The translations under genes were made by a program, and so were the position numbers. A DNA stretch of 64,000 bases from Anagrus nilaparvatae (lineage: Eukaryota; Arthropoda; Insecta; Hymenoptera; Mymaridae), in the NCBI GenBank assembly GCA_022575985.1, contig JAKSXM010000132.1, forward strand, positions 4,526,001 to 4,590,000, read 5' to 3'. Below, piece after piece: positions 10,822 through 56,249 of the stretch. The notes under the pieces were generated by a model, which searched no databases, was not told where the DNA came from, and was given only the letters and a program-made list of their open reading frames with translations. Every line of letters starts with the position of its first letter. Within the stretch, counting starts at the first letter, position 1.

Positions 10822-13800
10822 TTATTCTATTAGTTTATTTTGCCACTCTCTATCAGGCCTTATAAACTCTATTCCGTCACTTTCATCAGAACTTGAAATG
10901 TCATCTTCGTCGAAATAGGACGCTGCTTCACCGGTATTTTCTTGATAATCTAAAAAAAATTAATTAAGTTTTTTATTTTACAAATTAATATTAGTAAAAC
11001 CAAAAATGATTATAAACCTTTTACTGGACGTCTAAATATTTCTATTTCTTTTTCATCATCATCAAAGAATGAACTTCCATCTCTTAACAAACTAAAAGCG
11101 TAAGGTCTTCTACTTTCCCAGTCTTTGTTTCTTTTTTCTTGGCATTTTAAAATTACTAATATTATAAAAGCTATTCCTAATAATAAAGCTGTCCCTGTGT
11201 TTTAAAATATTGAAGTAGAAAATATTAAGCATCCAAAATTATAAATAGACTTTGATGTATCTTACCTATTAAGATAACAAATACTGTTCTTTTCATACCC
11301 ATTACATTTTCATCTTCTTTCATTGGAATAATATACTTGGTAAGGCTCCCAGTCATAGAGTTATCTATAATTTTTGTTGTTTTTATAAAATTTTTAGCCT
11401 CGATTGTAACTTTATGTTTTCCAGGAGGTATTAAAATCCAATAAGCTCCGTTGTCATGAGTTTCAATTCTATGAACAGAGTCATCGTATGATATAATAGC
11501 ATTAGGTATAGCATGATGATTTTCATCAACTATGTAGCCAGATACTCCTTTGATAACTTCGTTTATTAAACTTAAAAAGTTATTTTTGTTATTTTCCCAA
11601 ATCTTATCTGAATTGTCATTGTTACAGCAAGTAACATAGACATCCATTCCAAGAGTACTTGTTTTTAAATATAAGTAATCAATGAGAGAATTTTTTTTAT
11701 TTACATTGGAACTACCATTTATTATACCAGTTGATTTATCATTACACTGGGCATTTGGAACCTCCAACTGATTTCTATGCAAATATGTAGTAGCAAGATG
11801 CTTTAAAACAACTTCATCTTGGTTAATATAACTATCATTTTTACTCTTACTGTATTTTTGTACAAATGGTATTTCTACATGCATTGATCCGCTAGCTAAA
11901 TTTATCGCTAAAATAGTTTTAATTTTTTTTATCCAATTCATTACTACTTTTGAATTGACATTGTAATTTAATTTATCTTCTTCAATTGGAAATTCAAGAT
12001 TATCTTTAGTAAGGTAAGAGCAAGTAATCGTTTGATTCATATCTGGATTGAGATTTGGTGCAATATAAATTGAAATATTGTTAACATAATTTGTTACCAG
12101 TAAATCATTCCTATAATTTGACAAAAGAAAAGAAGCTAAATTGATAAGAACTTTTGATGTAACTGGGCTTCCTTGATAAATTCCTGCAGTAAAAAGTATG
12201 GAAGGTTGTCCTCTAGAGAGGACAACTTCATTTTCAGAATGTATCTGGAGAGCCATAATTTTGCTTCCTTTTTTTGTATAACCCACATTGTGCATTGTTG
12301 TAATTTTAGGATATTTCCCATTTAATTTTTCCAGCTCATCATTAACAGAAAAGTCTGTAATGTTTTTATTTGGGATAAAATTTTTAAACTGGTACCCTGA
12401 ATTATCTTTATCTAGTATCACATTAATGTCAGTAATTTCATCAGCTTTAACATTAACTGACACTGAGTTTTCAATGTAACCATCGCATCTAAATGAAACT
12501 ACATAATCACCGGGAGGTAAAATGGCCTTAAAATATGCCATGTTTTGAGATACTTTATACATAGTCAAACCTATTTTTACTTGAGTGTTTCGAAGCGGTT
12601 CTCCTTCTCTGTTTTTAACTAAAGCTCGAATACCGGTGGTAATATTTTGAATAAGTTCTAACATATGATGTAAATTTTTTCTCCAAATAATTGGTATTTG
12701 TTTAGCTTCTGGATATTTACAGCAGGATAAAGATAAACTTAACTATGGAAAAAGCAAGAAAATTAAAAAAAAATTTTTTGCTTCTCTTATTTCACTTATT
12801 TAACTTACCACAGGAATCTTGTAAACTTTATTTATATAATCTTGAACTTTTTCTATTTCATTGTTCTGTTGATCACATGATTCTCTACCAACATCATTTT
12901 CATAACTCAAAGCAAAGTTTTTGAATATATCAACATTGTTTACAGAGTAACTAAAATTTAATTAGTAAAATTATTTGTTTAAACATTTTTTTTCAATAAA
13001 AATTAAACTTACCTTGCTTTAATTCCGTTACCTCCGCCAAATAAAATAATAGCATCATAGCCTTCAGTTCTTAGCATATTTTCTAAAGCACTAGTAATAA
13101 TATCCAGCTGACCTTGCTTTTTATTTGATGTATACAATTTTTTACCCACTTCGTCAGCTACTGTAGGATTACAATTATCTGGTATTTTTTCAAAATCTGG
13201 ATCAATCCCAGGAAGGAAATGAAATACAGTTCTATCTAATATCTTTTTAAACAAAGGGACTCCAAGATTACTAGCTTCTAATATATGACGAGCTAATCTT
13301 AAAAGAATTTCTCTGCCTATCGGTTGTGATGCAAATATTCCACCAAAAAGTCCAATGTGAAATTTATTTTCCTCAGGTGCACCCATCTATTAATTTAAAA
13401 AAAAAAACCATTTTATAAAACATAAAATAAATCAATGAATATTTTAAATAATAAATTTATTTACATCATTGGTAATTTTTAAAGAATGAATGGCCATACT
13501 GATAGGAGAATCATTAGCTTTAAATACTGCAGTATTAGTTTTATTGTTCTCTAAACGGGCAAAGGCACTACTTAATTTTGAGTTAGATAGGTAAACTGAT
13601 GCTAAATTAGAAGTTATAGCAAAATCATATGCATCTGACCTAAAAAATTAATTGCTTTAATTTTTTTCATTCATAAATTTATTTTTTAAATAAAAAAAAA
13701 AAAAAAAAAATCATTTTTTACCAATGTGATGGATCATCTCTCATCAATGTAAAATCAATTGTAATTGTTCCACTACTTTCAGGAATATCAATTATTTGAG

Positions 13801-16800
13801 ACACCGATTCAAGGCCAATTGCACTCGCAGTTATTTTGTATTTTCCTGGTTTTAAAATTCGCCAATAATCACCTTCAGTGCTAGTGTAAACATCATGATC
13901 TCTACCTTCTACTGAAATTTTTGCATGAGAAACAGCGCCTCCGATTGAAGAATGTACCATTCCATGTACTCCTTTTCTTGCCTAAAATAAAATGAAAATT
14001 AAAATAACTTGAAAACTATTATTGTTAAATAAAATTTACCAATTCTATGAATTGAAGAAGGGGTTCTTTGTTATCAAGCCAGAATTGTTTTAATTCATCA
14101 GCTTCTGGATACTTTTTGCAGCCTACTTCAATTGTTATTTCAAAAGCATTGCTGTGGACATAATTGTAATCTTGCATACCACCTACTACAGGATACCATG
14201 CTCCACCATTAGTGATTCCTCCTGGAAAGCTTTCAGACAAAAGATCTTTCACTCCTCTTTCCGAAGGACATGGTTGTCCCAAATGCATAGTTGGATGAGC
14301 ATTTGAATAAGTTTGAGCAATCATTTTAAATACATCATCATCCGTAGTTGGATTTGGATGAGGATTTTGATTACCTATGTAAGAAGGCGAATCATCATAA
14401 GGATAATTTGCAACTAAAGCTCCTCCATGAATATTTGCCGAGAGGACAAAAGGAATTTTCTTTATCCAATTCATTACTGCTTTAGTTTCAGGCTGTTGTA
14501 TAGCATTTTCCTAAAAAAAATTTTTTTAATCAGCATACATTTAATTTAAATGGTGAAGATAAAAGGATTACATTTGTAGTTTCATACTGATCAGGAAAAT
14601 TTCTATTTAGATCCGTATTATTACTATTTTCTCGACCAATAATACCAGAATAATCTCCTACAATAGATTTCTCGTAACCATCTGGATTCATGCTAGGCAT
14701 TATATGAATTCTATTAGAATTAAGTATTTTTGTTACTCTTGAATCCGAATCGTAATTTTCACAAAGATATTTAATAAGTAGTAAAAGAATTTCTCTTCCG
14801 ACAACTTCGTTACCATGCATGTTACCAATTAATTTTATTTCTGGCTTATTCGGATTATGTTTCCCTGGATTGTTAGTTATTTCAAGAACATAGAGTTCTC
14901 TACCCTCCACTGATTTTCCTATGCTATAAAGCTTTGTGAGACTAGGATAATTTCCATTTATATCTTTTAAAAATCTTTCCATTTCTATATAATTATGATG
15001 TGTATAATTATTTAAATTTTGAAAAAAACCATCTTCGTCTTGAGTCTTTATGATCCGCTTAAGTTTTCCTTTAGTTTTTTTTTTAGTTTGAAAAAAAGGT
15101 GAAAAAATAAAAATGGAGATTTAAAATAAATTAAAATTAAAAAATGAAAAACACAAGGTACAGAGAAAAAAAAAAAAAAAAAAAAAAAAAAATAAAAACT
15201 GTTGTTGGAATAAGGAAAAAATAAATGAAATTAAGAAATAAAATTTACAGAGAGCAAACAAAAAAATGTTTTTTTTATTCTTAAATTTCATTAAGTACAT
15301 TTATACACAATTTATTTACTTTCTAAAAATTCATACATCAAAACAATTAAATTAACTATATATAAATTTTAGTATTAATTGTTCTCTTTGCTTTTTAAAA
15401 ATTTAATTAAATAAAATAAGACATTTTACGAAAAAACACTAATAATAAAATATATTTTAAATTAAAAAAAAAAAAAACAAGTACATTACAAATAAATGCT
15501 ATCAAGAAAATGAAGCAGTTTATATTTCTGAGATTATTCATTTAGAAAGTTTTTATTATATTATTTTGATTCTGCAGATATCTCAAAATTAATTGATTCA
15601 AAAAATAGATGGACTTTTATAAAATTTTTTTTTCACACTTTACATATTTTCTTCATCTATTTACAAAAAATAAATGTTTTTAAGTTTTCAGTTCTGTGTC
15701 AAAAATATTTTTTTTTGTTTTTAGGCTAATGAGATTCTCTATACCTTGTGTTTTTTTTTTATTTTCACATTTTTTAACGTTAAAAAGGAACTAGAATTTT
15801 TAAAGTTAACAACTATAAAATATTTGAGATTCATAAATTATATAAATAGAAAATTTTAAATTTTTTAAAACTTATATTGAAATTTTGATCATATATTTGT
15901 TTAAAAAAATTAAATGTAACACATAAATTATTAACGGTGTCTGGATGTATACCCATATAAGATATATTTAAATATAATTATTATTCACATTTAATATTAC
16001 TGATCGTACACTGGGATAAATCTATCTGGTGCGAATCGATTGATAAATGGTGACACTTCAAAATAATAATTTTCAAAATTACCTTGTGGTTCTTGATGAT
16101 GTTGTTGTTTGTTCAATGTAAAGTTAACTATTTCCGCTGGGCCTTTTGGTACTGTTACCTTTATTGGTTCACTTGGTGCATATCTATGAAAGTACAGATA
16201 ATTTAGATAAAAAGCTATTCAATTATTAGTTATAATTTTTTTTAATTACCCCCAAGCAGCTGCATAAACGGTATATGTTCCTGGTAGGAGAAGACGCCAA
16301 TATTCTCCTCGATTTGAACTGGTTATATTTTTATTGATTCCAACAACAACAATATTTGCATCTTGAATTGGTTCACCTGTTTCACTATCAGTTACAAGTC
16401 CTTTAATTCCTATATGTGCTTGTTCCAAGTATTTGAGAAGGGATTCTTTGTTCTGACTCCAATATCTTTGTAAAAATGAGCCAAACGGATATTTACAACA
16501 ACTTAATTCAAAAGTTACTTCAAAAGCATTTGATCGAGCATAATTAAAATCTTGCATTCCACCTTGTACTTTATACCTTTGGTAAATAATTTATAAATTA
16601 AAAACTGCTGTTTAAATTATAAATTTTTCAAAATTGATAATTACCAATAGGCACCATTAGTGATTCCTCTATTAAAATTTTCATGAGCACAAGCATTTCC
16701 GCTTCTCATAGCTGGATTGTTATCTGCATAAACGTGAGCCAAATGTTTAAAGAATTTATCATCTGGAGATTTGCTTTCTTGACAACATTCTTGAGCAATT

Positions 16801-17630
16801 CTAATAAGAAATAATTTTTGAAAAAAGTATCAAACAAATTTATAAAATAAGCTAATTAGATGGGTTTTTAATTTCTTACCCAGAATCATAAGGATAACTA
16901 GCTACTAAAGCACCTCCATGAAAATTAGCAGATAAAACAAAAGGGTGAGAAACAATCCATTTCATCATAGAAATTGTTTCGTCTTGTCTTCCTTCTATTA
17001 ATTTACCTCCTTTAACTCGATTAAATCTAGGATCAAATTGATCAGGGAAATCTCTGTTAAGATCAACTGAATTAGCATTTTCTCGACCAGTATAATTCAC
17101 TAAAGAACTACATTGACCTTCCTAAAATTTATAAAATTTTTTTATATTAAAGAAATGGGTTAAAAAGAAATTTATGTAATGATTACCTTAGATTTTTCAA
17201 AGCCATCTGGGTTTAAGGATGGCATAATGAAAATATCAGTGTTATTAACAAGCCTTGTAACCCTTGGATCCTTTCCATAATTATAGAGTAAATACTTTGC
17301 TAAATAAATCATAAGTTCTCGACCAACAGGTTCATCTCCATGCATATTGGCAACATATTTTACCATTGGTTCTCCCAATTTTCTTTCTTGGACATTTTCA
17401 CTGATTTCAAGTACTAAAAGCTCTCTACCTTCGACAGATTTACCAATTGAATGAACTTTAGCTAAAGTTGGAAATTGTTGTTCAAGTTGCTGAAAAAGCT
17501 GTGTTAATTCTTTATAATGAGTGTAATACTGCGTAATAAAATCCTCGTTTGTATTCGACGTTGATCTCAAAGAATAAGCGTTTATTGTGTAAATAATTGC
17601 AAAAAATGAAAAAATAGCAAATTTAGCCAT
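10822..17630 (-). CDS. CPD: carboxypeptidase D (silver), four carboxypeptidase-like domains, membrane-anchored
   Basis: Fourteen exons join in frame to 1656 aa: 17630-17187, 17121-16880, 16800-16645, 16576-16250, 16183-16083, 15068-14572, 14510-14040, 13981-13722, 13639-13465, 13386-13013, 12950-12809, 12742-11266, 11194-11018, 10949-10822. A signal peptide opens the protein. Domain 1 has all M14 zinc/catalytic residues: [33 protein letters not shown] and the glutamate in FELSCCKYP. Domain 2 likewise: [42 protein letters not shown]. Domain 3 has lost the zinc ligands ([12 protein letters not shown]). A fourth degenerate domain follows ([12 protein letters not shown] where the zinc motif should be). 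Each domain ends in a transthyretin-like segment. One membrane helix (near [20 protein letters not shown]) and an acidic cytosolic tail complete it. The enzyme trims C-terminal Lys/Arg from peptides in the Golgi and secretory pathway. Vertebrate and Drosophila CPD are described with three domains. Confidence 0.93.
15069..15996 (-). other. CPD intron / 3' UTR of short isoform, with long poly-A run
   Basis: This is intron for the long CPD transcript and probable 3' UTR for the short one. It contains a run of about 30 A (around 15169-15192) and otherwise only AT-rich sequence. Confidence 0.5.
15997..16183 (-). CDS. CPD: alternative last exon giving a single-domain CPD isoform
   Basis: The fifth CPD exon can splice at 16083 (donor CAAG|GTAATT) into domain 2. 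It can also be read through for 28 more codons to an in-frame TAA at 15999-15997, ending [16 protein letters not shown]. The added residues look protein-like and the frame stays open exactly to that stop. The result would be a 451-aa protein with signal peptide and active domain 1 only, without membrane anchor and hence probably secreted. Short one-domain forms of silver made by alternative splicing are known from Drosophila. No transcript evidence is available here. Confidence 0.65.
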
Positions 17631-19166: not shown

Positions 19167-22100
19167 ATGTCTGAAATTACAATCCGAGGAGTAGATATAA
19201 GTTTTCCATTCAAACCTTATAAAGTTCAAGAAGATTATATGCACAAAGTTATTGAGTGTTTGCAAGGTGGAAAACATGGTGTATTAGAGTCTCCAACAGG
19301 TAATCAGAAACTCTCTTGAAAATAAATTAATAAAAAATATTAAAAATTATTATTTTTGTTTAGGCACAGGAAAAACCTTAAGTTTATTATGCTCGTCATT
19401 AGGGTGGCTATCAGTCAAAAAAGCACAGTTTCAAGCTCAAGAGGCAAATAATGAACCAAAAGGAAAACTTGTTCATGAAATTTATGATAAGTTAGACAAA
19501 GCAGTTGGTGAAACATTTGGCACCTCGAGTACTTTTGCCAAATCTTTACCTCAAATCATTTATGCTTCAAGAACTCATTCTCAGCTTTCTCAAGCTATAT
19601 CGGAATTAAAAAGAACAAGTTATAGAAATGTAGCAGTAGCTGTACTTGGTTCGAGAGATCAATTATGTATACATCCTCAAGTTATGAAAGAACAAAATTC
19701 TTCAAATAAAATTCATATGTGTCAAGCTAAAGTCCAAGCTCGAACTTGTCATTACTATAATAATGTTGAGCAGAGGTAAGCAGAGTTGCTTTTGAATAAT
19801 AAGTTTAAAATAAAAATAAGTTAAAAAAATACTTTAATTTTGAAGGAAAGAGGATCCTGTTTTTCGTGAAACAATTATGGATATTGAAGATTTAGTAAAA
19901 TTTGGTAATAAATTACAATGTTGCCCATATTTTTTGTCAAGAGAATTAAAGCAAAAAGCTAACATAGTTTTTATGCCTTATAATTATATTTTGGATCCCA
20001 AAACAAGAAAATATCAAGGCATAGATTTAGAAAATAATGTTATTTTGTTAGATGAAGCACATAACGTTGAAAAAACATGTGAAGAAGCAGCATCTTTACA
20101 GGTATAATTATTGAATTTAAAATAATATAAAAGAATGTGATTTTAAATATTTTATTTTACTTTTTTAGATAAGTAGCACAGATATCGCAGTTTGTATTGA
20201 TGAAATATCAATGGTAATGAATGATATGGCTGTTTTAGAAAATCCAGAAGATTTTAAAGACTTTACAAAAGATGACTTATGTCTCTTGAAACCAATGTTT
20301 TTAGAATTTGAAAAAGCAATTGACAGTATTGAATTAATAAAGAAAGAGGAAGGTAGAACATTTCCTGGAGGATTTATTTTTGAATTGTTAGCAAAAGCAG
20401 AGGTTTAATATTTTAGACAAATAATTAAATACTTTTGAAATTATGTTCCTATTATTACTAATTATTTTTAGATAACTCAAGGTAGAGAACAGTTTGTGCT
20501 TGATAGACTTGATAAAATAATTGCTTACTTAACAACAGTCAGTACTTCGGCTTTCAATAAAAAAGGAAACGGGCTTCAAAAATTTTGTGATTTTTTACGC
20601 GTTGTATTTATTAAAGGATCAGCTGGATTAAAATATAAAGATAAAATAAAAGAATGTTATAAAGTTTATGTGCAAATTGAAGAACCAAAAAAAAGTTTTA
20701 AAAATGATGTCTGGGAAACAAAGAAAATGACTAAATCTGATGGAAAAGTTATTAGTTATTGGTGTTTTAGTCCAAGTTTTAGCATGCAACAGTTAGTAGA
20801 TCAAAAAATTCATTCTGTTATATTAACAAGTGGTACTTTATCTCCATTGAAACCTTATATTTCTGAACTTGGAATCCCGATTTCTATTGAGTTAGAAAAT
20901 CCTCATATCGTTACATCTGATCAAATTTGTGTTGGGGTACTAAGCCAAGGTCCTGATGGCCATTCTTTGAATTCTTCTTACAATACAAGGTTAATAGTTT
21001 GAAAAGTTAGATGAAAAAAAACACGAATAATCAATTAAATTTTTTTTTTTTAGGAATGATCCAAAATATATTTCATCTCTTGGTCAAACAATTTTTAATT
21101 TCAGTTGTCTTTTACCAGATGGTTTATTAATTTTTTTTCCTTCTTACCCGATTATGAAAAAGTGTCGAGAAGATTGGCAAAATTCTGGTATTTGGACCAA
21201 AATTGCAGAACGTAAGGTAAATGAGTTTAATAATTATTTTTACTTAAGATAATTTTAAAATAAAAAATTTGATTTAAAATTAGCCAATATATGTAGAACC
21301 TCAGACAAAAGAAAGCTTTCTTAACGTAATGAACGAGTATTATCAAAAGATTCAAGATCCAAATAACAGAGGAGCTATTTTTATGGCTGTTTGTCGAGGC
21401 AAAGTAAGCGAGGGATTAGATTTTGCAAATGCTAATGGTAGAGCAGTTTTGATAACTGGTTTACCTTACCCTCCATTAAAAGATCCAAGAGTAATGTTGA
21501 AACAACGGTATTTGGATGAAAATAAATTTTCAGGAAAAGAGGTATCTTCATAAAAAGTTATAATTTTGTTTGTGTAAGTTTATTTTAATAATTTAAATAT
21601 TTTTGTAAGAGTTTGACTGGTCAACAATGGTATCAACTTGAAGCTTCTAGGGCTGTGAATCAAGCAATTGGGCGAATAATTCGTCATAAAAATGATTATG
21701 GAGCTATAATATTATGTGATTGTCGATTTGATAATAATTCGTTTAAGCAACAGCTATCAGCATGGCTTCGTCCTTATATAAAAAAGTTTGATAATTTTGG
21801 AGTAGTTACTAGAACACTCAGAGAATTTTTTAAAAATGCGCATGAAAACGTAAGGAAAATCTAGTTTAATATAATGAATATATAATTAATTTTTATTTAT
21901 TTTAGCTACCTCAACCAGCATCCAATAAAAGTTCGATGGGTAACAGTGTATTTAACTTACCTCCTGCTCATCCAAGTTTTGAAAGCGGAAGTAGAAAAAT
22001 TATGAATAATAGTTCAAAAAGAAATGTGAATAAAATTGATAAGACTGATGATTTTGATTTAAATTCTTATTTAAAAGACTGTGATAATAATAAAAGTAAG

Positions 22101-22764
22101 GACCAAGATAAAAATTTAAAATCTAATGATTTTTCCTTATTATTCAATCGAAAAGAAAAAAATGTTGTAAATTTTAGTAATTGTAAATTAGATTCAAGTA
22201 GTAATATCTTAGTGCCAAAAACAAGTTGCACAGTAAAAGAGCCATTATTAAAAAAGAGAAAAATAAAAATTCAACCGGTTAAATTTTCAGAAGATAATGA
22301 AGTAGCGAGCTGTTCTTTTAAAGAGGAATCCTCAAAAGCAGACTCATCTGTAACGGATAAAAAAGAGTTAGGAAAAAATTACTTAAAAGAAGTGCGTATA
22401 CATTATATTTTATTTACAAATTAAATATAATAAATTTATCTATACATATTTATTTTGTTTACAAAAAAGGTTAAAAAATCATTATCAACAGAAGAATACA
22501 AAATTTTTCAAAATATGACAGTATCATATACAAAGAATGGAAATTTTGATGAATTGTATATTAACTTGGAAAATCTTTTTGTTACTGGAAATCAATTAAA
22601 ACATTTATTTTTAGGTATACCAATTAATGATTCATATATTTTTTTTAATTCAACTAATTTATTTACTTTTTGCAGGTTTTAAAAGTTTTTTAAAAAAAAA
22701 TCATAACTCTTTATTTGAAAAGCGAGTCGAAGAATTAGAAGCACTTAATGTTTGGCTGTCCTAA
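19167..22764 (+). CDS. RTEL1: RTEL1, regulator of telomere elongation helicase 1
   Basis: Eleven exons join in frame to 977 aa: 19167-19299, 19364-19775, 19846-20101, 20169-20402, 20472-20989, 21054-21216, 21284-21541, 21610-21849, 21906-22391, 22470-22614, 22676-22764. The start [20 protein letters not shown] is typical of RTEL1. Walker A is SPTGTGKT near residue 42 and the DEAH box is in LLDEAHNVE. Cysteines around DQLCIHP, HMCQAK, ARTCHYY and QCCPYF mark the iron-sulfur cluster. Helicase motifs V/VI appear as [13 protein letters not shown] and [16 protein letters not shown] basic, lysine-rich linker leads to a harmonin-N-like domain ([20 protein letters not shown]). RTEL1 unwinds D-loops and telomeric loops in the nucleus. 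No RING domain is seen. From 21268 on, the gene lies inside a segment that is duplicated at 30634. Confidence 0.95.
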
Positions 22765-23715
22765 TTATTGGGAATGTATATAACAATTAGTAAATAATGA
22801 TTTTTTTTTTAAATATATTTATGTATAACAATTTACTTATAACATATTTCTTTATTTATAATAAATTAATTAAAATAGAATAAAATATCGTATTATAAAT
22901 ATTTTTAATACGTAAATAAGACAAAAAAATGTCAATAAATCTATTTACAAAGTAAATTAAATTTTGCATTTTTTTTTTATCATATCGTAACAAACATTAT
23001 GCATTATTTTTTTCATTTTAACGACAATTAAAACTTATATTGTAAAAAATCCAAAGTAACTTACACGTTTAGGATTTTCATTTACAGTAAATATAGAGAA
23101 TATATACAATTGAAACAAGCATGTAAAACAAATTTTACTTTTTATTGTGCTTAATAAAAAAATATTAAGTTGGATATCTACTTGTTAACAAAGTGAAGAG
23201 AATTATTTTCATATTGAATAAAATTTGTAACATAGTTTATAAATATCTAGAGATATGAGGTGTTAATTTTTATTGAAAGAAAAGGTTTTAAGGCAACAGA
23301 TTATAAAAAATGCAATATAAATTATTTTGAAATACTTGAAGCTATAAATTTTTTTGGTAACGATATTAACTATTTTTTTATTTGTAATAATTTGACACTG
23401 CGAAATTTAATATTTTATTTTATACTAATACACCACCCTTTTAATAAAATTTATGATAATCAAACTATCGAGCGGATAATGATTGAAGTTTTGCACAAGA
23501 GGGTGTTTCGATATTTCTTGCTCTTACAAATTGTTCTTGATCACCAAAATTTCTTGCTTTCAAATATAATACTCTTAATATTTAAATTTATAAGAAATTT
23601 AAGGTGCTTTTATTAAATAAAAAACAAAAACTATACTTACGAACTATGATGTAAACTATAAACAGGATCAGATATGAAAAAACTACTCATCATTGTTAAA
23701 ACTATTAATAAAAGT
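21268..23715 (+). repeat. left copy of a 2.4-3.0-kb direct duplication
   Basis: This stretch matches 30634-33660 nearly base for base in the same orientation. It covers RTEL1 exons 7-11, the intergenic space, and pieces of DNAJB12/14 exons 8 and 6. The left copy lacks roughly 570 bp that the right copy has (about 32938-33506). Sparse substitutions and small indels separate the copies, so the event is not brand new. Both ends abut sequence of the central block or its host genes without shared long homology. Confidence 0.92.
23465..23715 (-). pseudogene. DNAJB12/14 3' exon fragments, internally deleted
   Basis: On the minus strand, 23558-23465 matches the last exon of the DNAJB12/14 gene at 32840-32952 ([20 protein letters not shown], same stop), but its 5' part is gone. 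23715-23641 matches the 3' part of the membrane-helix exon at 33586-33701, including its donor. The exon between them (33014-33177 in the intact gene) is deleted. The fragment belongs to the left duplicate and cannot make protein. Confidence 0.88.
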
Positions 23716-23765
23716 GTACACTATACAAAAGAAAACCCATACCCCTACAACGCCTCTTTTTTAGA

Positions 23766-24653
23766 CTATTCTATTTCTTTTTTCATTTTTTGTATTTCTT
23801 CTATTGAAAGTTTAGTAAACTCAAGTATAAACTCTAAAGGTACTTTACTAATTAGCATTTTTTTGGCCATTTCTTTTTCTATTTTAGCCTTACCTTCTTC
23901 TTTAGCTTTTTTAAGCGCACTCGCTTGGATCCTAAGCCACTTTAAGCGGTCTTCGTAAGTGTTTCGTTCTTCATTGCTAAAATTCATAACCTCGAGTACT
24001 GTTAAAGCTTTCTTTAATAAAACTATATCTAACTCTTGCGGTAAATTATCCTTATTTAATAATTCATTGTGAGTTAAAAAAGCTACCCATACATCAAGAG
24101 AGTCTTTTACTTTTTTAACTATATCTGCTAACTTTTTTGTAGCATTAGTAAATTTATTCAGCTCTATTACATGTAATTCAATATCTTGAAAATATATCAA
24201 ATCAGTTGTTTTATCTCTTAACTGAAAGGTACTGTGATAATTTTTAGTACCTGGGATACTATTAAAATTCAGAATGTGAATTCCAATAGTTTTATTTAAC
24301 TTTGAATATTCATCACCATCTTTTAATTGCCCTACATACAATTTAGACCAATAATACAATGCTCGCTTATCGTAATCAGCTTCATTTGCAACCTGTATTT
24401 CTATATTATACATTTTCCCACTTTCACTTTTGGCTTTGACATCAAGAATAGATAATTTATCTGTTGCAAAATTCTTCGGATTGTATGGATTAAGTAGCGT
24501 TACTTCTATAATTTGATCTTGTTTACTAACTATTGAATTAATAAGCGATATCAATAGATCCTTATTCTCTTCTATTCCAAAGATTTTTTTAAAAACCAAA
24601 TCTACTCTTGGGGTAACTTTAGATTTTGAAATAACTGGTTCTGATACATGCAT
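23766..24653 (-). CDS. bacterial-type Rpn family nuclease / putative transposase (PD-(D/E)XK)
   Basis: A 295-aa open frame starts with ATG at 24653 and ends at 23766. It has the Rpn/PDDEXK_2 plan: [19 protein letters not shown] at the N-terminus, then [21 protein letters not shown] with the catalytic Asp and the ExQ motif, [20 protein letters not shown], a central [10 protein letters not shown], and a C-terminal helix with [11 protein letters not shown]. This family is bacterial, common in Rickettsiales and other intracellular symbionts; members promote RecA-independent recombination as DNA endonucleases. The core motif residues are present and there are no stops. The frame is continuous upstream with a GFM1 exon, so it could also be translated as a fusion. 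AT content resembles the host. A transfer from an endosymbiont is the likely origin; source taxon unknown. Confidence 0.85.
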
Positions 24654-26112
24654 GCATGTTTGTTTTTTTTTGTTTGTTCGAGTATTGATTATTGAGTCAG
24701 TTTTTTTTAAACTACCTTGATAATATCTAACATTTGTTAATTGTCCAAATCTACGAGCTTCTAATTTAAATGCCAAACCAACAAAAGGATTTTTATCAAT
24801 TCTTGCAGGATTTAATTCTATTTTTTTTGGTTCTTGTCTAAAATTCATAAAATTTTTTTAAATAAAGTAAATAATTTTAACTATTATTTTATAAACAAAC
24901 CCTTCTTGTTCTACATAAGCATAATTCTTTACTTCTCCTGGATTTGGTAAATAATCTAAGACAGCATCTAAAAGAGGTTGTACTCCTTTATTTTTTAAGG
25001 CAGTTCCTACTATAACAGGTGTAAATGCTCTCTTTAAGCATGCTCTGCGAACAGCAGCCGTAATATCTTTTTCTGATATAGCAGATTCATTTAAAAATAA
25101 TTCACCAAGAGTATCATCAACGTTGCTTAAATGTTCTATTAATTCTTGTTTTTTTTCATTGGTTTCTGATAAAAAGGAATCACATTAAAATGGTTTAAAA
25201 AACTTTTAATTTTATTATACTTTACCTGTCCTCATATCTTGTGGTACTTCATCTTCTCTCACTATTTCACCATAATTACCTTCAAAATACAATGCTTTAT
25301 TCCGTATAATATCAATTACTCCTTTAGTTTCACTTTCTCCTCCAATTGGTAATTGTATAAAAGCAGCATTATGTTGAAGTTTACTTCTTAATTGATTTAA
25401 AACTTTTGTTGGATTTGCTCCCATTCGATCTAATTTATTAATAAATGCTAAACATGGTACGTTATACCTTTTCATTTGTCTATTAACAGTTAATGTTTGA
25501 GATTGAACACCTCCAACAGCACATAAAACAAGGATTGCTCCATCTAAAACCCTTAAAGCTCTTTCGACCTCGACAGTAAAATCAACGTGTCCAGAAGTAT
25601 CTATAATATTAATATTATGATCTTTCCATAATGTATATGTTGCTGCAGACTGAATAGTAATTCCTCTTTGACGTTCAAGTTCCATACTATCCATAACCGC
25701 TCCAACATTATCTTTTCCTCTGACCTACTAAAAAAAATCAATTCAACTTTTAATTCTAACATTATACTTTATATAAATCTCCTAATTAAACTCTATTTTT
25801 TTACCTCATGCATTTCAGAAATTCTACCAGTATAAAAAAGTATTCTTTCTGTTAATGTAGTTTTACCAGAATCAATGTGAGCTGAAATTCCTATATTTCT
25901 AACTTTTTCTATTGGTTTGTGCTCAGAATATTTTGCATGAGAGGCAAAAAATCGGTTATTTAACTTTAAAAAAAAAAGAAGAATTAATTAAAATAATATT
26001 TATATGGTTTTAAATAAGAATTAAAAATTATAAAAACCTGATATAAATGGTAATGTAATTTTGAAAACTTTTTTGGTTTCAATTGATATTTTATGAAATT
26101 AAACATAGCCAT
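24654..26112 (-). pseudogene. GFM1: GFM1 (mitochondrial EF-G1), 3' truncated and fused in frame to Rpn
   Basis: Exons 26112-26038, 25963-25805, 25724-25226, 25165-24901 and from 24837 encode the first ~390 aa of mitochondrial elongation factor G1. The G-domain motifs are intact: AHIDSGKTT (P-loop), [20 protein letters not shown] and [10 protein letters not shown]. Domain II begins ([20 protein letters not shown]) and stops after INTRTNKK near 24663. The next codons read into the Rpn ORF. Domains III-V (about 350 aa), which are needed for ribosome translocation, are not in the window. Spliced, the chimera would be 689 aa with one frame throughout. It may be a broken copy with a working GFM1 elsewhere, or an assembly join. 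Labelled pseudogene because translation-factor function must be lost. Confidence 0.85.
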
Positions 26113-26463
26113 TTTAAATAAATAATTAACTATAAGTAACAAAAAATTTTAATTTCAAAATATTTCAAATAATTATTAATAAACAATTATTTAAAAATTA
26201 AATATTCATTTTAATTAAATTAGAGGTTATAATTCTAAAGTGCCTGCAAAGTGCAACTGCCCCTGTAAATACTCGGTCACGTGCTTTTACACTGCGTGTT
26301 TATATTTTCATTTTGGAGTCGGTTAGCCACCCCACAATTGTGGGTTTTTAAAAACAACTTTTTATATTCTACTCATGTGATAGTGATAGTGTTTTGTTTT
26401 ACATTCATTGTCTGCAAACTGAAAAACTAAGAAAAATCTACTAATTTTTAATTTATTTTAGTT
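26113..26463. promoter_or_regulatory. bidirectional promoter between GFM1 and CCDC115/PIGB
   Basis: GFM1 starts leftward at 26112 and the CCDC115 ATG lies at 26464, leaving 350 bp for both promoters. The middle (26240-26345, including ACTCGGTCACGTGC and GGAGTCGGTTAGCCACC) is much less AT-rich than the surroundings and has an E-box-like CACGTG. This fits a short divergent housekeeping promoter. Confidence 0.5.
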
Positions 26464-28692
26464 ATGGAAAAAGTAAGTCAAGTTTGTATTAATCAAAAAA
26501 TATATAAAATATAAAAAATATTGCAACAAACTTATAAACAACAAAATTTGTCCGAAAAAGTTTTTGAGAATACTAAATTAATTTTTAGATTTCTCATCAT
26601 GAGATTCCAAAAAATCTTGTACAACAAAATGTTCATTTTGCCATTTCTCTGGAGATTAAGTTCTGTTCTTATTATTCAAACGACTCATGTTCCTGATGAA
26701 TATTGGCAATCGCTTGAAGTAGCTCATAAGATTGCTTTTGGTTATGGATATTTAACTTGGGAATGGTGCAGTGGTATTAGAAGTTATTTGTATCCCTTTT
26801 TAATATCGGTTGTATATTCTACTTTAAAATTTTTAAATCTAGATCTTACAATACTTCTTATTTACTTACCCAGAATACTTCATGCATTTCTTGCTTCTTA
26901 TGCTGACTACAAATTTTATATTTGGTCGGGGAGTAAATTTGCATTATTTAATCTTTGTATAAATTGGTACTGGTATTATTGTGCTACAAGAACTTTAATA
27001 AATAGTTTAGAAACTTGCTTGACAACAATTGCATTGTCTGAATATCCTTGGAAAGATTTTAAACAAAAAAATGTAAAATTTTTATGGATTGTTGGATTTA
27101 TATGTGCAGCTAGACCCACAGCTGCAATCGTGTGGTTGCCTTTGTGCCTTTATCATATTTTTAAGAACAAAAACAATTTGTATATATTATTGCAATATGC
27201 AAGTGTTTTTTTATTCTATATTTTAATTTCTACTTGCATAGATGTATATTGTTATAAAAAATTTATTTTAACCCCATTAAACTTTTTTAAAATAAACGTG
27301 TTGAGTGGTGTCTCTGAAGAATATGGAGTCATGAGTAAATACTGGTATTTATTTGCCGGATTACCAGTGCTACTTGGCATAAATTATTATTTTTTTGTCC
27401 GTAAAATCATTAAAGTAATTAAAAATTATAAGAAGTCAAAAATTTCTACAATTTTGTTGACAACTGCTTCCGTTTGGACAATTTTTATTTACTCCTTACT
27501 TGGTCATAAGGAATTCAGATTTATATTACCCATTATGTCAATTATCGTGCATCTTATAAATGATGAAATCATTTACTTTTTTCAAAAAATTATTAAATTG
27601 AGTTATAGAACCTCAAAGATCATTTTGATTACATTATTAATTTTCACAAATTTATTACCAGGATTTTATTTTTCTGTGCTGCACGAGCAAGGTGGATTGA
27701 AAATGTCTAGATATCTTGAAAAAGAATTAAAGAGTAACAACAATTTATCAGATACAAGCGTTGTCTTTTTAACTAAATGTCATTCTTTACCTTTTTACAG
27801 TCACATACATTTAAATGTATCTATGAGATTTTTGACATGCGAACCAAACTTGAATAAAATAAAAAATTATACTGATGAGGAAGATTTATTTTTTAATGAC
27901 CCGATTAGTTGGCTGAATTTAAATTATTTAAATAAAACCTCGTTACCAAAATATATAATTTCTTATGATACCACTGCAACTTACATGCAAACCTTTTTAA
28001 ATAACTACAAGATATTATTTTCCACTGTAAATAATCATTTTGAAGGACCTGATTACAAAGAAATAATCTTGTATAAATTGCAATGATTAAATAATTTTTT
28101 TTTTGCTATCAAGTAATTTGATTAAAATACTTATATTTTAAATTTACAAAAAATTAAACTGATTTGTTGATTCTTAAATTTTTAGAAACAAGAAAACATT
28201 CAAGAAATTTGTGAAGCTTTAGATGATTTAACAATAGAGAATTTCGATTTAATTGAAAAAAAAGTAATTACTACAGTTAAATTGGAGAATTTATTGAGAC
28301 AAGGACACATAGAACTAGCTCAAGCTAGATACATAAGAGGAAAAGAAAGTATAGGACTTGTTCAAATACCAAGTCAAGAATGTCTGATGAAATCTTTATT
28401 CAATTTGGAAACTAGTTTTGTTGAAAGCAATGACAAAAATGATACAAGCTCTCCTTATTTTGATATAAGTTTAAAAAAATTGGATCCAAATAATAAAGAT
28501 GACAATGAGGATCAAATACAAAATCCTATAAAATGGTTTGGGGTTTTAGTACCTCAAAGTTTAAAATCAGCTCAGAAACATTTTCAAGAAGCAATTTATT
28601 TATCAGTAGAATTAGCTAATATTCAAGCTCAGTTACAATCTTCAATAAATAAAGTCAAATCATTAAAACCGTTAAGAAACGATGCTGCATAA
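26464..28692 (+). CDS. CCDC115: CCDC115 (Vma22-like V-ATPase assembly factor)
   Basis: A nine-base first exon, 26464-26472 (ATGGAAAAA, followed by GTAAGT), splices in frame to 28186-28692, giving 171 aa. The protein has an N-terminal coiled coil, then LENLLRQGHIELAQARYIRG, and the family signature NPIKWFGVLVPQSLKSAQKHFQEAI near the C-terminus. CCDC115 works with TMEM199 in the ER to assemble the proton channel of the V-ATPase and so supports acidification of the Golgi and endosomes. The 1.7-kb intron contains the whole PIGB coding region on the same strand. Without the tiny first exon the frame has no good ATG start, which supports the splice. Confidence 0.85.
26599..28086 (+). CDS. PIGB: PIGB, GPI mannosyltransferase 3
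   Basis: A single exon codes for 495 aa from the ATG at 26599; the open frame extends a little further upstream but with no ATG. Family signatures are clear: TTHVPDEYWQSLEVAHKIAF followed by GYGYLTWEWCSGIRSY, where the His/Asp-Glu luminal motif of GT22 mannosyltransferases sits, then CATRTLINSLET, ARPTAAIVWLP and LLGHKEFRFILP. Around ten hydrophobic segments fit a multispanning ER protein. PIGB adds the third mannose, from dolichol-phosphate-mannose, to the GPI-anchor precursor in the ER lumen. The gene is intronless and nested within the CCDC115 intron in the same direction, so it probably uses the same promoter and an unspliced transcript, or its own promoter near 26480-26590. Confidence 0.93.
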   Translation: MRFQKILYNKMFILPFLWRLSSVLIIQTTHVPDEYWQSLEVAHKIAFGYGYLTWEWCSGIRSYLYPFLISVVYSTLKFLNLDLTILLIYLPRILHAFLASYADYKFYIWSGSKFALFNLCINWYWYYCATRTLINSLETCLTTIALSEYPWKDFKQKNVKFLWIVGFICAARPTAAIVWLPLCLYHIFKNKNNLYILLQYASVFLFYILISTCIDVYCYKKFILTPLNFFKINVLSGVSEEYGVMSKYWYLFAGLPVLLGINYYFFVRKIIKVIKNYKKSKISTILLTTASVWTIFIYSLLGHKEFRFILPIMSIIVHLINDEIIYFFQKIIKLSYRTSKIILITLLIFTNLLPGFYFSVLHEQGGLKMSRYLEKELKSNNNLSDTSVVFLTKCHSLPFYSHIHLNVSMRFLTCEPNLNKIKNYTDEEDLFFNDPISWLNLNYLNKTSLPKYIISYDTTATYMQTFLNNYKILFSTVNNHFEGPDYKEIILYKLQ

Positions 28693-29352
28693 TTTATTCA
28701 TGATTTGTTATATTTTTATTTATTTTATTAATTTATGAAAATTAAGTTTTTATACACATTTATTTAAGTTTATAATATTATTTTAATATTATAACTAAAG
28801 TTTTTAATAATTATATTGTTTTCTTAATAATAAAAAAGTTATTATACAGACACTTAAAGAAAGTGAAATATAAATGAGCTGTAAAATATCCCATGTTAAT
28901 ATTGCATATTAAAGATTTAATTGGGAGTATAAAGACAAATAAATAATTAAATTCGATTGTTACTAACATACAATGAAAAGTCACAAATTGTTTTCCTATA
29001 AAATATTAATAAGGCTAAAACTTTTTATAGAAAATGTATTTGTATACATAATTTAAATATTTAATAAACCCAATGGGTAAACTATAAACTTGTCGAAAAT
29101 TTATTTAACAATCTTAATATTTTTTAAATGATTCAGATACCTTTTAATTACTAAAAACTTGGCCTACCTAATTAAATCATGCAATGAGGTTTAAATTTCC
29201 CGGTTTTCCTTATTTGATTTTTTTCCTAACGATGTCTTCCGTTTATTCAAAAATATTGCGGGAAATAAAAACTTGAAATATACATAAAAAATATATTTTT
29301 ATTTTTAATATTAGGTAATATTTAAAATAGTAACAAAAATCATAGTTATACA
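28693..29352. other. AT-rich space between CCDC115 and the WRNIP1 fragment
   Basis: No coding frame or RNA gene is recognised. The two flanking genes end towards each other. Confidence 0.6.
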
Positions 29353-30633
29353 TTAATTTTCTTTGAAAAAGTCTATATCTTCTAAACCTTCGGGTAAATA
29401 CTTCAAATTAGATTTATCTTTATGCAACATATTATAACCTTTTCCGTATCCTGTTATATAAAAATTTTATCAAATTATCAAATTACACTTTCAAATATTT
29501 AAAGGCATAAATAATTTTATTTTATAATAATGACAAATTACCAATATCATTCATTAATTTTGTTGGTGCATTTCTAAGATGCAAGGGTACGGATGGTTGA
29601 GGGCCTTTTTGTTCTGAAATTAATTTTTGAGCTGCTCTCAAAGCATCTTCCATTAAACGAGACTTTGGTGCTCTTGCTAAATAAGTTGTACATTGAGCTA
29701 ATAATACATCGCATTCTGGCATTCCTATAACATTTTGCAAACTTGCATTGTTTGCACTGCTAACCCTGAAAATTGCTGCTAGTTTAATTCAAAAATAATT
29801 ATTTTTTAAGTTTATTTGAATACCTAAAGCTTTTGGATCTGCCAATCCAATATCTTCTGATGCCATTCTTACAAGCCTCCTGGCAATATATATTGGATCT
29901 TCTCCACTGGTAATCATTCTTTTTAACCAATATAAGGAAGCATTTTCATCACTTGCTCTTACTGACTTGTGTAAAGCAGAAATAATATCATAATGTTGAT
30001 TACCTCATCTGTCATAAAGCATATGGGTTTTCTTAAGACTGTCTTTAACATGTTCAAGTGAAATAAAATTATTATTTTTTGGTAATGAATCTTTATCAGA
30101 AACGTTTATTGAACTAATTGCCAACTCTAGCCCACCAAGTGCTATTCGAGCATCTCCATCACTAGTTTCAGCTAACCATCGAACCGTCTCTTTGTCTATG
30201 TAAAACAATTTTGAAGATTCTAAATTTTCCTGCTAAAATAAAATTAAAATCATCAAAAATAATATATGTTGCAAAGAAAATATAGAATATAAGAATATAA
30301 ATATTTTATTTACATCTTTATTTGTCTTATTGTGTATAGATCCATCTAATGTTCTAATAGCTTTTTCTAAAATTGAAATTATATCTTCAGAAGTTAACTT
30401 TTCCAAAATAATAACCCGACAACGACTTAATAAAGCTGAATTTAAGCTAAATGATGGATTTTCTGTTGTAGCTCCTATAAGTTTTATTGTACCAGATTCA
30501 AAATGTGGTAAAAAAAAATCTTGTTGAAGTTTATTAAATCGATGTATTTCATCCATAAACATTACTGTGCGATGACCAAATTTAAGATCATTATTAGCAA
30601 TATTAATAGCTCCTTTCACTTCATTAACACCAG
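29353..30633 (-). pseudogene. WRNIP1: WRNIP1 3' fragment with stop codon and frame break
   Basis: Exons encode the C-terminal two thirds of the AAA+ ATPase WRNIP1: [20 protein letters not shown] (Walker B), [20 protein letters not shown] (sensor 1), [68 protein letters not shown] and the terminal YLPEGLEDIDFFKEN. The ubiquitin-binding zinc finger and Walker A are absent: homology stops at 30633, where the RTEL1 duplicate begins. An in-frame TGA at 30007-30005 falls where the family has serine, between LYDR and GNQHYD. The exon ending at 29826 and the one starting at 29765 do not join in phase, so at least one more frame defect exists. I conclude it is a non-functional relic. A sequencing error could explain one defect, but not the missing 5' half. 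Confidence 0.87.
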
Positions 30634-33600
30634 TTTGATTTTAAATTAGCCAATATACGTAGAGCCTCAGACAAAAGAAAGCTTTCATAACGTAATGAAC
30701 GAGTATTATCAAAAGATTCAAGATCCAAATAATAGAGGAGCTATTTTTATGGCTGTTTGTCGAGGTAAAGTAAGCGAGGGATTAGATTTTGCAAATGCTA
30801 ATGGTAGAGCAGTTTTGATTACTGGCTTGCCTTACCCGCCGTTAAAAGATCCAAGAGTAATGTTGAAACAACGGTATTTGGATGAAAATAAATTTTCAGG
30901 AAAAGAGGTATCTTCATAAAAAGTTATAATTTTATTTGTGTAAGTTTATTTAAATAATTTAAATATTTTTGTAAGAGTTTGACTGGTCAACAATGGTATC
31001 AACTTGAAGCTTTTAGGGCTGTGAATCAAGCAATTGGGCGAATAATTCGTCATAAAAATGATTATGGAGCTATAATATTATGTGATTGTCGATTTGAAAA
31101 CAATTCGTTCAAGCAACAGCTATCAGCATGGCTTCGTCCTTACATAAAAAAGTTTGATAATTTTGGAATAGTTACTAGAACACTCAGAGAATTCTTTAAA
31201 AATGCGCATGAAAACGTAAGAAAAATCCAGTTTAATACCATGAATATACAATTAATTATTATTTATTTTAGCTACCTCAACCAGTATCTAATAAAAGTTC
31301 AATGGGTAACAGTATATTTAACTTACCTCCTGCTCATCCAAGTTTTGAAAGCGGAAGTAGAAAAATTCTAAATAATAGTTTAAAAAGAAATGTGAATAAA
31401 ATTGATAAGACTGATGATTTTGATTTAAATTCTTATTTAAAAGACTGTGATAATAATAAAAGTAAGGAACAAGATAAAAATTTAAAATCTAATGATTTTT
31501 CCTTATTATTCAATCGAAAAGAAAAAAATGTCGTAAATTATTATTTTAGTAATTGTAAATTAGATTCAAGTAGTGATATTTTAGTGCCAAAAACAAGTTG
31601 CACAGTAAAAGAGCCGTTATTAAAAAAGAGAAAAATAAAAATTCAACCGGTTAAATTTTCAGAAGATAATGAAGTAGCAAGCTTTTCTTTGAAAGGAGAA
31701 TCCTCAAAAGCAGACTCATCTGTAACGGATAAAAAAGAGTTAGGAAAAAATTACTTAAAAGAAGTGCGTATACATTTAATTTTATTTACAAATTAAATAT
31801 AATAAATTTTTCTATATATATTTATTTTGTTTACAAAAAAGGTTAAAAAATCATTATCAACAGAAGAATACAAAATTTTTCAGAATATGACAGTATCATA
31901 TACAAAGAATGGAAATTTTGATGAATTATATATTAACTTGGGAAAATCTTTTTGTTACTGGAAATCAATTAAAACAGTTATTTTTAGGTATACCAATTAA
32001 TTAATGATTCATACATTTTTTTTAATTCAACTAATTTATTTACTTTTTGCAGGTTTTAAAAGTTTTTTAAAAAAAAATCATAACTCGTTATTTGAAAAGC
32101 GAGTCGAAGAATTAGAAGCACTTAATGTTTGGCTGTCCTAATTATTGGGAATGTATATAACAATTAGTAAATAATGATTTTTTCTTTAAAATATATTTAT
32201 GTATAACAATTTACTTATAACATATTTCTTTATTTATAATAAATTAATTAAAATAGAATAAAATATCGTATTATAAATATTTTTAATACGTAAATAAGAC
32301 AAAAAAATGTCAATAAATCTATTTACAAAGTAAATTAAATTTTGCATTTTTTTTTATCATATTGTAACAAACATTATGCATTATTTTTTTCATTTTAACG
32401 ACAATTAAAACTTATATTGTAAAAATCCAAAGTAGCTTACACGTTTAGGATTTTCATTTACACTAAATATAGAGAATATATACAATTGAAACAAGCATTT
32501 AAAACAAATTTTAATTTTTATTGTGCTTAATAAAAAAATATTAAGTTGGATATCTACTTGTTAACAAAGTGAAGAGAATTATTTTCATATTGAATAAAAT
32601 TTGTAACATAGTTTATAAATATCTAGAGATATGAGGTGTTAATTTTTATTGAAAGAAAAGGTTTTAAGGCAACAGATTATAAAAAATGCAATATAAATTA
32701 TTTTGAATTTTTGAAGCTATAAATTTTTTTGGTAACGATATTCACTATTTTTTTATTTGTAATAATTTGACACTGCAAAATTTAATATTTTATTTTATAC
32801 TAATACATCACCCTTTTAATAAAATTTATGAAAATCAAACTATCGAGCGGATAATGATTGAAGTTTTGCACAAGAAGGTGTTTCGATATTTCTTGCTCTT
32901 ACAAACTGTTCCTGATCACCAAAATTTCTTGCTTTCCACATCATCGACTCTCCTTTAAAGTAAATTTTTAATTTTTAACTGTTTTTAAACTTTTAGATAC
33001 AAATTTTACTTACTGTAGTTCTTTTCCCTATAACATGAATGCCTTAAAAAATTTACATAATCTTCTTCTACGGAATATTCAAGTCTTCTTAAATTATCAT
33101 CGTAATCTACATGGAAACTTTCCTTAACGTAATAAGGTACTTTTAAATTCTGCGTCGTTCTTTGAACTGAATACTTACTAAATGAAAAGAAAAAAAAATT
33201 GTTTATAAATAATTTGATTTGTATTTTATTGTCATTTTAATTTTTTTAATAACTAAATACACTTTATACATTTTTACTTACAATTTTCTTTATAAAAATA
33301 AATTATACAAGCATATAAATCTTTTATAACAAAACATTCTGTAATTAATTTACTTTTAAAAATTTATAAATTTTTTTATTGACACAGATAACAAAGATAA
33401 AGTAAAATTTATATATTAGATAATTTTAGCAATCATAAATTACTTTTTAAGAGTAACTATTTATAAAGTATTATTGAGAGACTAAAAAACAATTACAATA
33501 AACTACAAATATCATACTCTTAATAATTAAATTTCTAAGAAATGTAAGGTGCTTTTATTAAATCAAAAACAAAAACTATACTTACGAACTATGATGTAAA

Positions 33601-33660
33601 CTATAAACAGGATCAGATATGAAAAAACTACTCATCATTGTTAAAACTATTAATAAAAGT
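30634..33660 (+). repeat. right copy of the direct duplication
   Basis: Matches 21268-23715 in the same orientation, plus about 570 bp that the left copy has lost. It carries RTEL1 exons 7-11 (decayed) and DNAJB12/14 exons 8, 7 and most of 6 (intact). The left junction is inside the WRNIP1 fragment (CACCAGTTTGATT, with TTTGATT shared by both partners). Confidence 0.92.
30653..32141 (+). pseudogene. RTEL1 3'-half copy, frameshifted
   Basis: Starts with exon 7 ([16 protein letters not shown]) and reaches the RTEL1 stop at 32139-32141. The helicase N-terminal half with Walker A and DEAH boxes is missing. Relative to the intact copy there are scattered substitutions, a 6-bp insertion near 31540, and one extra G near 31940 (AACTTGGGAAAATC against AACTTGGAAAATC) that shifts the frame in the harmonin-like domain. 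It cannot make RTEL1. Confidence 0.92.
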
Positions 33661-36111: not shown

Positions 36112-36299
36112 TTGTGACTCCATCTACATAAATAAATTTTCTCTCACACAAGCAAAACTGTTTCTATTATTAACATAATATTGTTCTATTATTATTGTTT
36201 AGAACATATTGATTAAAAATTTTTAAAACGCATTTTTATAATAAAGACAACATTTTATTAAAAATATAATTTTACGCACAAAAGCAAGAGTTAAAAATT

Positions 36300-36660
36300 T
36301 GTTGGCATACAGTAAAACATTAAATAGGTAAGATTGCATCAACTACTTTTTAACAGTAAGTTCATGTTTAAAAATTGAACAAAACTTTAACTAAATGTTT
36401 TGACAAATATATTCTTTAGATTAAATAAAAAAATTTTTCTTTATTAATTTTTTTATGCAGATTATACCATAAAACTAGTTTGTTGGCATACAGTAAAACA
36501 TTAAATAGGTAAGATTGCATCAACTACTTTTTAACAGTAACTTCATGTTTAAAAATTGAACAAAACTTTAACTAAATGTTTTGACAAATATATTCTTTAG
36601 ATTAAATAAAAAAATTTTTCTTTATTAATTTTTTTATGCAGATTATACCATAAAACTAGT
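36300..36660. repeat. 181-bp unit repeated twice in tandem
   Basis: TTGGCATACAGTAAAACATT recurs exactly 181 bp later, and the rest of the unit matches with about one substitution (AGTAAGTTC against AGTAACTTC). Each unit ends with a TTTTTTTATGCAG splice-acceptor-like sequence and ATTATACCATAAAACTAGT. The second unit runs directly into the 5' leader of the J-protein gene at 36689, so the repeat may double a 5' UTR splice acceptor or promoter. Confidence 0.92.
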
Positions 36661-55379: not shown

Positions 55380-55952
55380 GTTTATATCAGGGTTGGGCAT
55401 ATCGCGATACTTTCAGTACCCGATACGTAAAAGATACCGATATTTTTTGTATTTTTTATCGTTATTTTAGAGCGATACTGATTGCGATACTTTTTTTATA
55501 ATATGCGATACAAATGTATCGTGTATCGAAAAAATTTCTGATACACGATAGATTTTGTTCGGTATCGAAAAATTTTCGATACGATACTTATCGTGTATCG
55601 TTTATCGCAGCATCGCGTACTAATTATGACTATATAACGTGCCATTTGCACTATTTTGAAAATGTTGCACTTTATTCCTCCCTTATCTGCATTTTAACTA
55701 AGTGCTGAATTCTTCATTTTAATTCGAGTTACGGTTTATACAAATCATTTCTTTTAAAATGATTTAATTATTTAAAAAGAGAAGTCTTTATATATTGGGA
55801 AGCATTATTAAATGTATATAAGATTTACTGCAGAATCTTAGGTATTTTTAACTTCTCTCATGATTTGCTTATCTGTTGTTAAAAAGGTGATAAATACTAC
55901 CTATATTAAATATAATAAACATTAAATGATTTTTGAATTTTTTGTCGTTGCT

Positions 55953-56108
55953 ACACACCAAACCTAAAAGAGTTTTTTGTTACAAAAAGAATCATAACAA
56001 AAATAAATTTTTTTAAAAGAATTAACCTCAAAATAATTCCTCTCTAAAGAATTAAATAAACATTCAATATTTTCTGCGTAACAAAAAACTCTTTTAGGTT
56101 TGGTGTGT
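55953..56108. mobile_element. 156-bp hairpin element nested in the left arm
   Basis: About 30 bp starting ACACACCAAACCTAAAAG are repeated in inverse at the other end (to GGTTTGGTGTGT). The matching place in the right arm of the host element (near 58196) reads straight through without it. So it inserted into the left arm after the palindrome formed. Confidence 0.85.
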
Positions 56109-56249
56109 ATAAACTATCAGAAAAATGACTATACTCCAGTAAAATCACGGTTTTGGTGGTATTGTTTGTGGCCGCTACCAGATTCGGTCTACTATAGGTT
56201 TTTTGGGTCGCTGAACACGAAAATCGGGGTTTTTTCTATGCGCAATTGG

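Follow-up and report, generated by a model that had tools for sequence, protein, structure and literature searches.

A nuclear fusion of GFM1 with a Rickettsia-like Rpn nuclease gene in Anagrus nilaparvatae and its possible RpnL-like and RpnS-like members

Chimeric genes that arose by horizontal gene transfer (HGT-chimeras) are a published class in arthropods, for which the main text of one survey gives 104 origins, with 81 of the 104 clusters found in single species (Kapoor et al. 2026, PMC13389597). In bacteria, RpnS was reported to be the antitoxin of the full-length toxin RpnL, and the repeat number to set the specificity between L and S, according to the sections consulted of that study (Zhong et al. 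2023, PMC10327210). In Dyspersa psyllids, an Rpn gene similar to Wolbachia genes was predicted in 2 insect species, as far as the sections consulted describe it (PMC12203342). Here we analyzed a window of 64,000 nucleotides of AT-rich insect DNA from Anagrus nilaparvatae (Hymenoptera: Mymaridae; GCA_022575985.1, contig JAKSXM010000132.1, positions 4,526,001 to 4,590,000). On its minus strand, the beginning of GFM1, the gene of the mitochondrial elongation factor EF-G1, runs in frame into a complete Rpn nuclease gene. Three shorter GFM1-Rpn genes were found on another contig, and our best reading of these sequences is a nuclear gene family, probably directed to mitochondria, with one RpnL-like and three RpnS-like members.

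Five minus-strand exons of the fusion gene splice to one stop-free frame of 689 amino acids (aa), in which GFM1 exons 1-4 are followed by an exon 5 that is part GFM1 and part Rpn. All 4 introns have GT and AG ends. This structure agreed with the original prediction, a note made from the letters of the window, which had placed Rpn in frame with GFM1 and had joined exons 1-5 to the same length. The parts of the gene are as follows.

26038..26112, minus strand: chimera exon 1, GFM1 start and presumed mitochondrial presequence, aligned to native GFM1
25805..25963, minus strand: chimera exon 2, GFM1, P-loop of the G domain
25226..25724, minus strand: chimera exon 3, GFM1 G domain, with P122S in the DTPGH motif
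24901..25165, minus strand: chimera exon 4, GFM1
23766..24837, minus strand: chimera exon 5 as a whole, the GFM1 beginning running stop-free into complete Rpn
24666..24837, minus strand: GFM1 part of exon 5, bounded by the end of the native-gene alignment at 24666 (uncertain by a few bases owing to an A-run)
24654..24665, minus strand: short spacer after the end of the GFM1 alignment and before the first ATG of the Rpn open reading frame (ORF)
23766..24653, minus strand: Rpn (PDDEXK_2) nuclease ORF, with active-site positions D18, D71, E85, Q87 and R97 present
23716..23765, minus strand: Rpn 3' flank, mostly common to the three short copies, meeting a DNAJB12/14-like exon at 23715/23716
23609..23614, minus strand: AATAAA, 151 nt beyond the chimera stop

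As read from its sequence, the long member consists of the GFM1 presequence and G domain followed by a complete Rpn nuclease with a C-terminal RpnS-like domain, and we take its GFM1 part to reach the start of domain II. By composition, the first 40 residues contain 7 K+R and 1 D+E, and the GFM1 presequence suggests a mitochondrial destination of the products.

The frame that holds Rpn (24848-23766) matched Pfam PDDEXK_2 (E-value 6.6e-60, 203.1 bits, cut-off 27.4) and TIGR01784 (1e-49, 169.8 bits, cut-off 52.1), and the five active-site positions were invariant columns in an alignment of 49 rows. These profile matches and positions bore out a 295-aa Rpn/PDDEXK_2 ORF with the core motif and no stops, as originally predicted. 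The active-site residues of E. coli RpnA are D11, D63, E82, Q84 and R94, as given in the part consulted of the study describing them (PMC5350276), and their pairing with the window positions, by motif and spacing, is our own. The RpnS domain of the window copy superposed on the RpnA-S crystal structure over 46 residues at 1.2 A, and the C-terminal three-helix RpnS domain is thus present in the long form. Whole Rpn had no match among PDB sequences at E 0.01. Fold searches with the nuclease core gave only weak matches, so the assignment of its fold rests on Pfam.

A protein search and a tree had been proposed as checks, and both pointed to a Rickettsia-like source. Among the 120 matches listed, the best protein for the 295-aa ORF was from Rickettsia bellii (74% identity). 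In a quick tree of 74 rows, made from the window, 68 of the 120 listed matches and 5 of the 8 matches inside longer proteins, the window was sister to R. bellii (SH-aLRT 97) among rows named Rickettsia, on a branch flagged as long. The foreign interval thus appears to nest among non-metazoan sequences, in the Rickettsia lineage. The leader of the window protein was not found in any of the 120 listed Rpn relatives, and the usual bacterial start position reads K in the window Rpn. In the protein collection, 8 matches placed Rpn inside longer proteins (379-1205 aa), none of them fused to GFM1 by the listed domains. In the fungus gnat Pseudolycoriella hygida, a partial protein (P0243) annotated on a 193-Mb contig combines a piece of Rpn with NusA and has the look of a symbiont insertion.

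The fusion gene sits 4.5 Mb inside a 17.9-Mb contig (C113) of a 489-Mb, 393-contig insect assembly, and in a GFM1 tree of 52 chosen rows the window fell beside Chalcidoidea (93/79). Metazoan and non-metazoan intervals share one ORF. Together with the R. bellii grouping, the large host contig and the in-frame fusion upheld the proposal that a symbiont gene had moved into an insect nuclear gene. The original prediction had left a choice between a new fusion gene and a killed copy of GFM1, and the second option was not borne out. The fusion did not replace GFM1, because window positions 24666-30633 are a 97.7% copy of a native block on contig C62, and the fused piece is an extra copy. The native GFM1 on C62 is apparently complete, as the genome search recommended beforehand indicated: clustered exon matches cover residues 20-757 of the GFM1 of a relative. 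A loss of the only GFM1 was considered and ruled out by these matches lying together on C62.

Searching the genome with the Rpn protein gave 5 places: the window, 3 places at 62.48 Mb of C62, and a distant PDDEXK_2 gene on C317. The DNA search gave 4 places, which were the window and the same 3 on C62. The gene on C317 (L019:1465-2328; C317:12231754-12235206), of about 290-300 aa, was open (7.1e-26) on a 31.9-Mb contig; a possible splice acceptor precedes it, and it is perhaps a separate transfer.

The three genes on C62 have open spliced frames of 144, 172 and 154 aa. Each consists of 3 exons with GT-AG introns and a coding length divisible by 3, and in each an in-frame joint links GFM1 exon 1, exon 2 and the first part of exon 3 with roughly the final 75-85 residues of Rpn. 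In 2 of the 3, 66 nt of exon 2 including the GTPase P-loop are absent, in frame. The Rpn parts change fast and differ in coding length by 18 and 12 nt, as taken from the protein alignment, which preserves the frame, while the lengths of several intron indels are not divisible by three. Between the copies c62_2 and c62_3 there is one four-residue difference, c62_2 having the spacing of the long form; c62_2 differs from the long form in the residue at 26 of 80 codons. Among PDB sequences, one short C-terminus matched 7th0 best, though weakly (E 0.082). The long gene and the short ones have in common Rpn and, as far as the joint, the greater part of some 50 bp of 3' flank. A repeat at window positions 52413-53628 also lies just past the 3' end of all 3 short genes (C62:62470001-62500000) and may have aided spread. 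Repeated frames beside the short genes (C62:62491191-62499727) are presumably mitochondrial-carrier-like.

When compared with the published HGT-chimeras of arthropods, the locus is similar in carrying animal and bacterial intervals in one frame, in the relation of the donors to Rickettsiales, and in gene duplication, which is a frequent route there (PMC13389597, main text). A long form together with RpnS-only forms under one host presequence was not found among those HGT-chimeras in the sections consulted of that study, and its main text does not mention nuclease, PDDEXK, mitochondri-, elongation factor or Galendromus. Bacterial RpnL/RpnS, in the sections consulted, likewise combine a full-length PD-(D/E)XK nuclease that contains an RpnS C-terminal domain with separate RpnS genes, and vary by four-residue repeats (PMC10327210). 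Unlike them, the insect genes are nuclear, intron-bearing and fused to GFM1, and the short forms are separate genes rather than products of an internal start. For the Rpn of Dyspersa psyllids, no fusion or short form is described in the sections consulted (PMC12203342), unlike here. Another arthropod-encoded Rpn, LOC100899756 of Galendromus occidentalis (P0242), has an N-terminal extension that resembles a mitochondrial presequence by eye and composition. It is 48% identical to the window Rpn, carries another extension, and is distant in the tree, on a long and unsure branch. This mite protein is encoded on a 1.1-Mb scaffold and is possibly a parallel case.

Our overall reading, which we consider likely, is that a genuine HGT-chimera of bacterial and insect parts lies in the nuclear genome and belongs to a small gene family, taken together with the targeting, toxin-antidote action and history that we propose. 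Long and short products would be imported into mitochondria by the shared GFM1 presequence, the long form would cut DNA there, and the short forms would bind the C-terminal domain of the long form and hold that form in check, in the way that RpnS inhibits RpnL in bacteria; this toxin-antidote action is proposed by analogy. As for the history, an older GFM1-Rpn fusion may have given rise to the short genes by internal deletion. More tentatively, the family could be a bacterial toxin-antitoxin pair rebuilt as two kinds of nuclear gene with one mitochondrial presequence, which would be either an organelle nuclease domesticated along with its inhibitor or a selfish toxin-antidote element.

Codon changes were compared between the copies and their native counterparts. 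The native block on C62 holds GFM1, PIGB, CCDC115 and WRNIP1, and the window copy is cut inside GFM1 at one end and inside WRNIP1 at the other; its WRNIP1 fragment is dead. The GFM1 codons of the short genes showed 6 synonymous changes each and 2, 3 and 2 nonsynonymous changes, which gave p values of 0.004-0.010 if all divergence was neutral and 0.04-0.08 with drift confined to the short lineage. Their presequence codons look constrained; the Rpn C-terminus does not. The window GFM1 exons 1-5 showed 10 synonymous and 10 nonsynonymous changes from native. In the WRNIP1 segments compared, there were 0 synonymous changes and 10 others, including a stop and 2 at the joint. Tested by Fisher's test against the 8 WRNIP1 changes left when those at the joint were omitted, GFM1 gave p 0.025 and PIGB p 0.001; under a null that let the window copy alone drift, PIGB was still constrained (p 0.010).

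Several results weigh against a functional family. Under that stricter null, the window GFM1 exons 1-5 were indistinguishable from drift (p 0.19). The window GFM1 also carries P122S, G361R and Y368N at 3 near-invariant sites (among 111 sequences, the median was 0 and the highest 4), and from these changes its GTPase is therefore probably impaired or relaxed. Of the 130 Rpn columns that are strongly conserved, the long form deviates at 9, a count tied for the highest among 121 sequences, and the short protein had no Pfam match above the cut-off. Between the Rpn C-termini of the long form and c62_3, there were 24 nonsynonymous and 5 synonymous changes (dN.154, dS.141, over only the 74-81 codons alignable among copies), a ratio equally compatible with neutral drift and with rapid change under selection. 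Binding between long and short forms is uncertain because about 30% of the residues are not the same in their C-terminal domains (for c62_3, 24 of 80 codons). As regards the proposed history, the short genes have moved further from native in their GFM1 part than the window has, which would also suit two separate fusions.

These points bear on an explanation that competes with a functional family, namely that the insertion and the fusion frame are real but form a non-functional relic, in which Rpn served as filler in break repair and the frames stayed open by chance. We regard this as somewhat unlikely. The similar dN and dS in the Rpn C-terminal region, the unusual residues at conserved sites in both the GFM1 and the Rpn halves, the window GFM1 change compatible with drift under the stricter null, and the death of the adjoining WRNIP1 and RTEL1 fragments would all suit a relic. 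However, open spliced frames were kept at 4 loci, of which the three short genes are partly local duplicates of one another and not independent tests; coding lengths differ in multiples of 3; and the short-gene presequence codons changed at 6 synonymous to 2-3 nonsynonymous positions. In simulated neutral change at 0.069 per site, moreover, the 885-nt Rpn frame stayed stop-free in 6% of runs with frameshifts not counted, and the intact frame would be a correspondingly rare outcome for a relic.

The other alternative concerns history: two independent Rpn-GFM1 fusions instead of one old fusion followed by internal deletion, which we judge to be unlikely. The joints differ, lying in exon 5 of the long gene and in exon 3 of the short genes. 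Of 459 GFM1 columns compared, 36 set the short genes apart from both window and native, and 5 separate those two from each other. The window GFM1 differs from native at 23 of 1443 positions, and the long and short Rpn parts differ at 33 bases in 80 codons; this conflict of ages calls for either overwriting of the window GFM1 by native sequence or two fusions. Against two fusions, Rpn and most of the roughly 50 bp of 3' flank are common to long and short genes, and the window GFM1 has diverged more from native in the last 125 bp, which adjoin Rpn (6/125 against 17/1318 over the remaining GFM1 span, Fisher p 0.011). Such an excess is expected if a remnant of the older fusion was kept, and error-prone repair would match it equally.

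An artefact of assembly or contamination, in which symbiont DNA was wrongly joined to host contigs, was rejected as highly improbable, since diverged fusions occur at 4 places on 2 large contigs (3 of them away from the window), the joints are surrounded by host introns and the block duplication, and decay is limited to truncated neighbours.

The surroundings of the fusion gene suggest how a single old fusion could have reached its present place. The following features flank it; the names PIGB, WRNIP1 and DNAJB12/14 are presumed ones, and Pfam domains of these genes were found in the window.

24666..30633, no strand assigned: duplicated block, one collinear copy of native C62:5238238-5244179
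26521..28086, plus strand: PIGB duplicate, Glyco_transf_22, open, with 9 synonymous and 3 nonsynonymous codon changes from native
28186..28692, plus strand: CCDC115/Vma22 duplicate, main exon open
29353..30633, minus strand: WRNIP1-like 3' fragment, MgsA_C, dead, as native has neither its in-frame TGA (about 30005) nor its 2-nt insertion (near 29730)
21268..23715, no strand assigned: RTEL1 3' end and DNAJB12-14-like 3' end, copy 1, about 570 bp less than copy 2
30634..33660, no strand assigned: RTEL1/DNAJB12-14-like stretch, copy 2, its RTEL1 piece 5'-truncated and frame-shifted

The two RTEL1/DNAJB12-14-like copies, 96.4% alike over 2.3 kb, flank the foreign block on either side, and these duplicated flanks would fit replicative repair with template switches. 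Such repair, later than the older fusion, would have passed from the DNAJB12/14 piece to Rpn, then to native GFM1-PIGB-CCDC115-WRNIP1, and back into RTEL1. At the joint between the Rpn flank and DNAJB, the C62 flank and the DNAJB exon each read TTTTATT. For the WRNIP1/RTEL1 joint, a shared TTTGATTT was considered and withdrawn, as native WRNIP1 lacks it; no shared sequence beyond about 1 base was found at that joint. Elsewhere in the window, there are a 181-bp tandem duplication (36298-36660, 99%), a large inverted repeat (55439-58721, 95%) around 140-bp tandem units that is probably a transposable element, and a cluster of zinc carboxypeptidase (Peptidase_M14) frames (11225-17630). No tRNA genes or Rfam families were found in the window at the thresholds used.

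HGT-chimeras are already published as a kind (PMC13389597, main text), and the split architecture of long and RpnS-only genes was not found in the literature searched. Neither a GFM1-Rpn fusion nor a eukaryotic RpnL/RpnS pair was among the hits listed from that literature. The locus offers an unusually complete view of how a fusion forms, since its joints and the donor block are preserved, a dead neighbour serves as a neutral control, and there are older sister copies. It also provides a concrete, testable case in which a bacterial toxin gene would have gained a eukaryotic address label and its antidote half would have been split off with the same label. Should the family prove functional, it would place an Rpn nuclease beside mitochondrial DNA, and would show that a bacterial gene-within-a-gene system can survive without bacterial internal translation starts.
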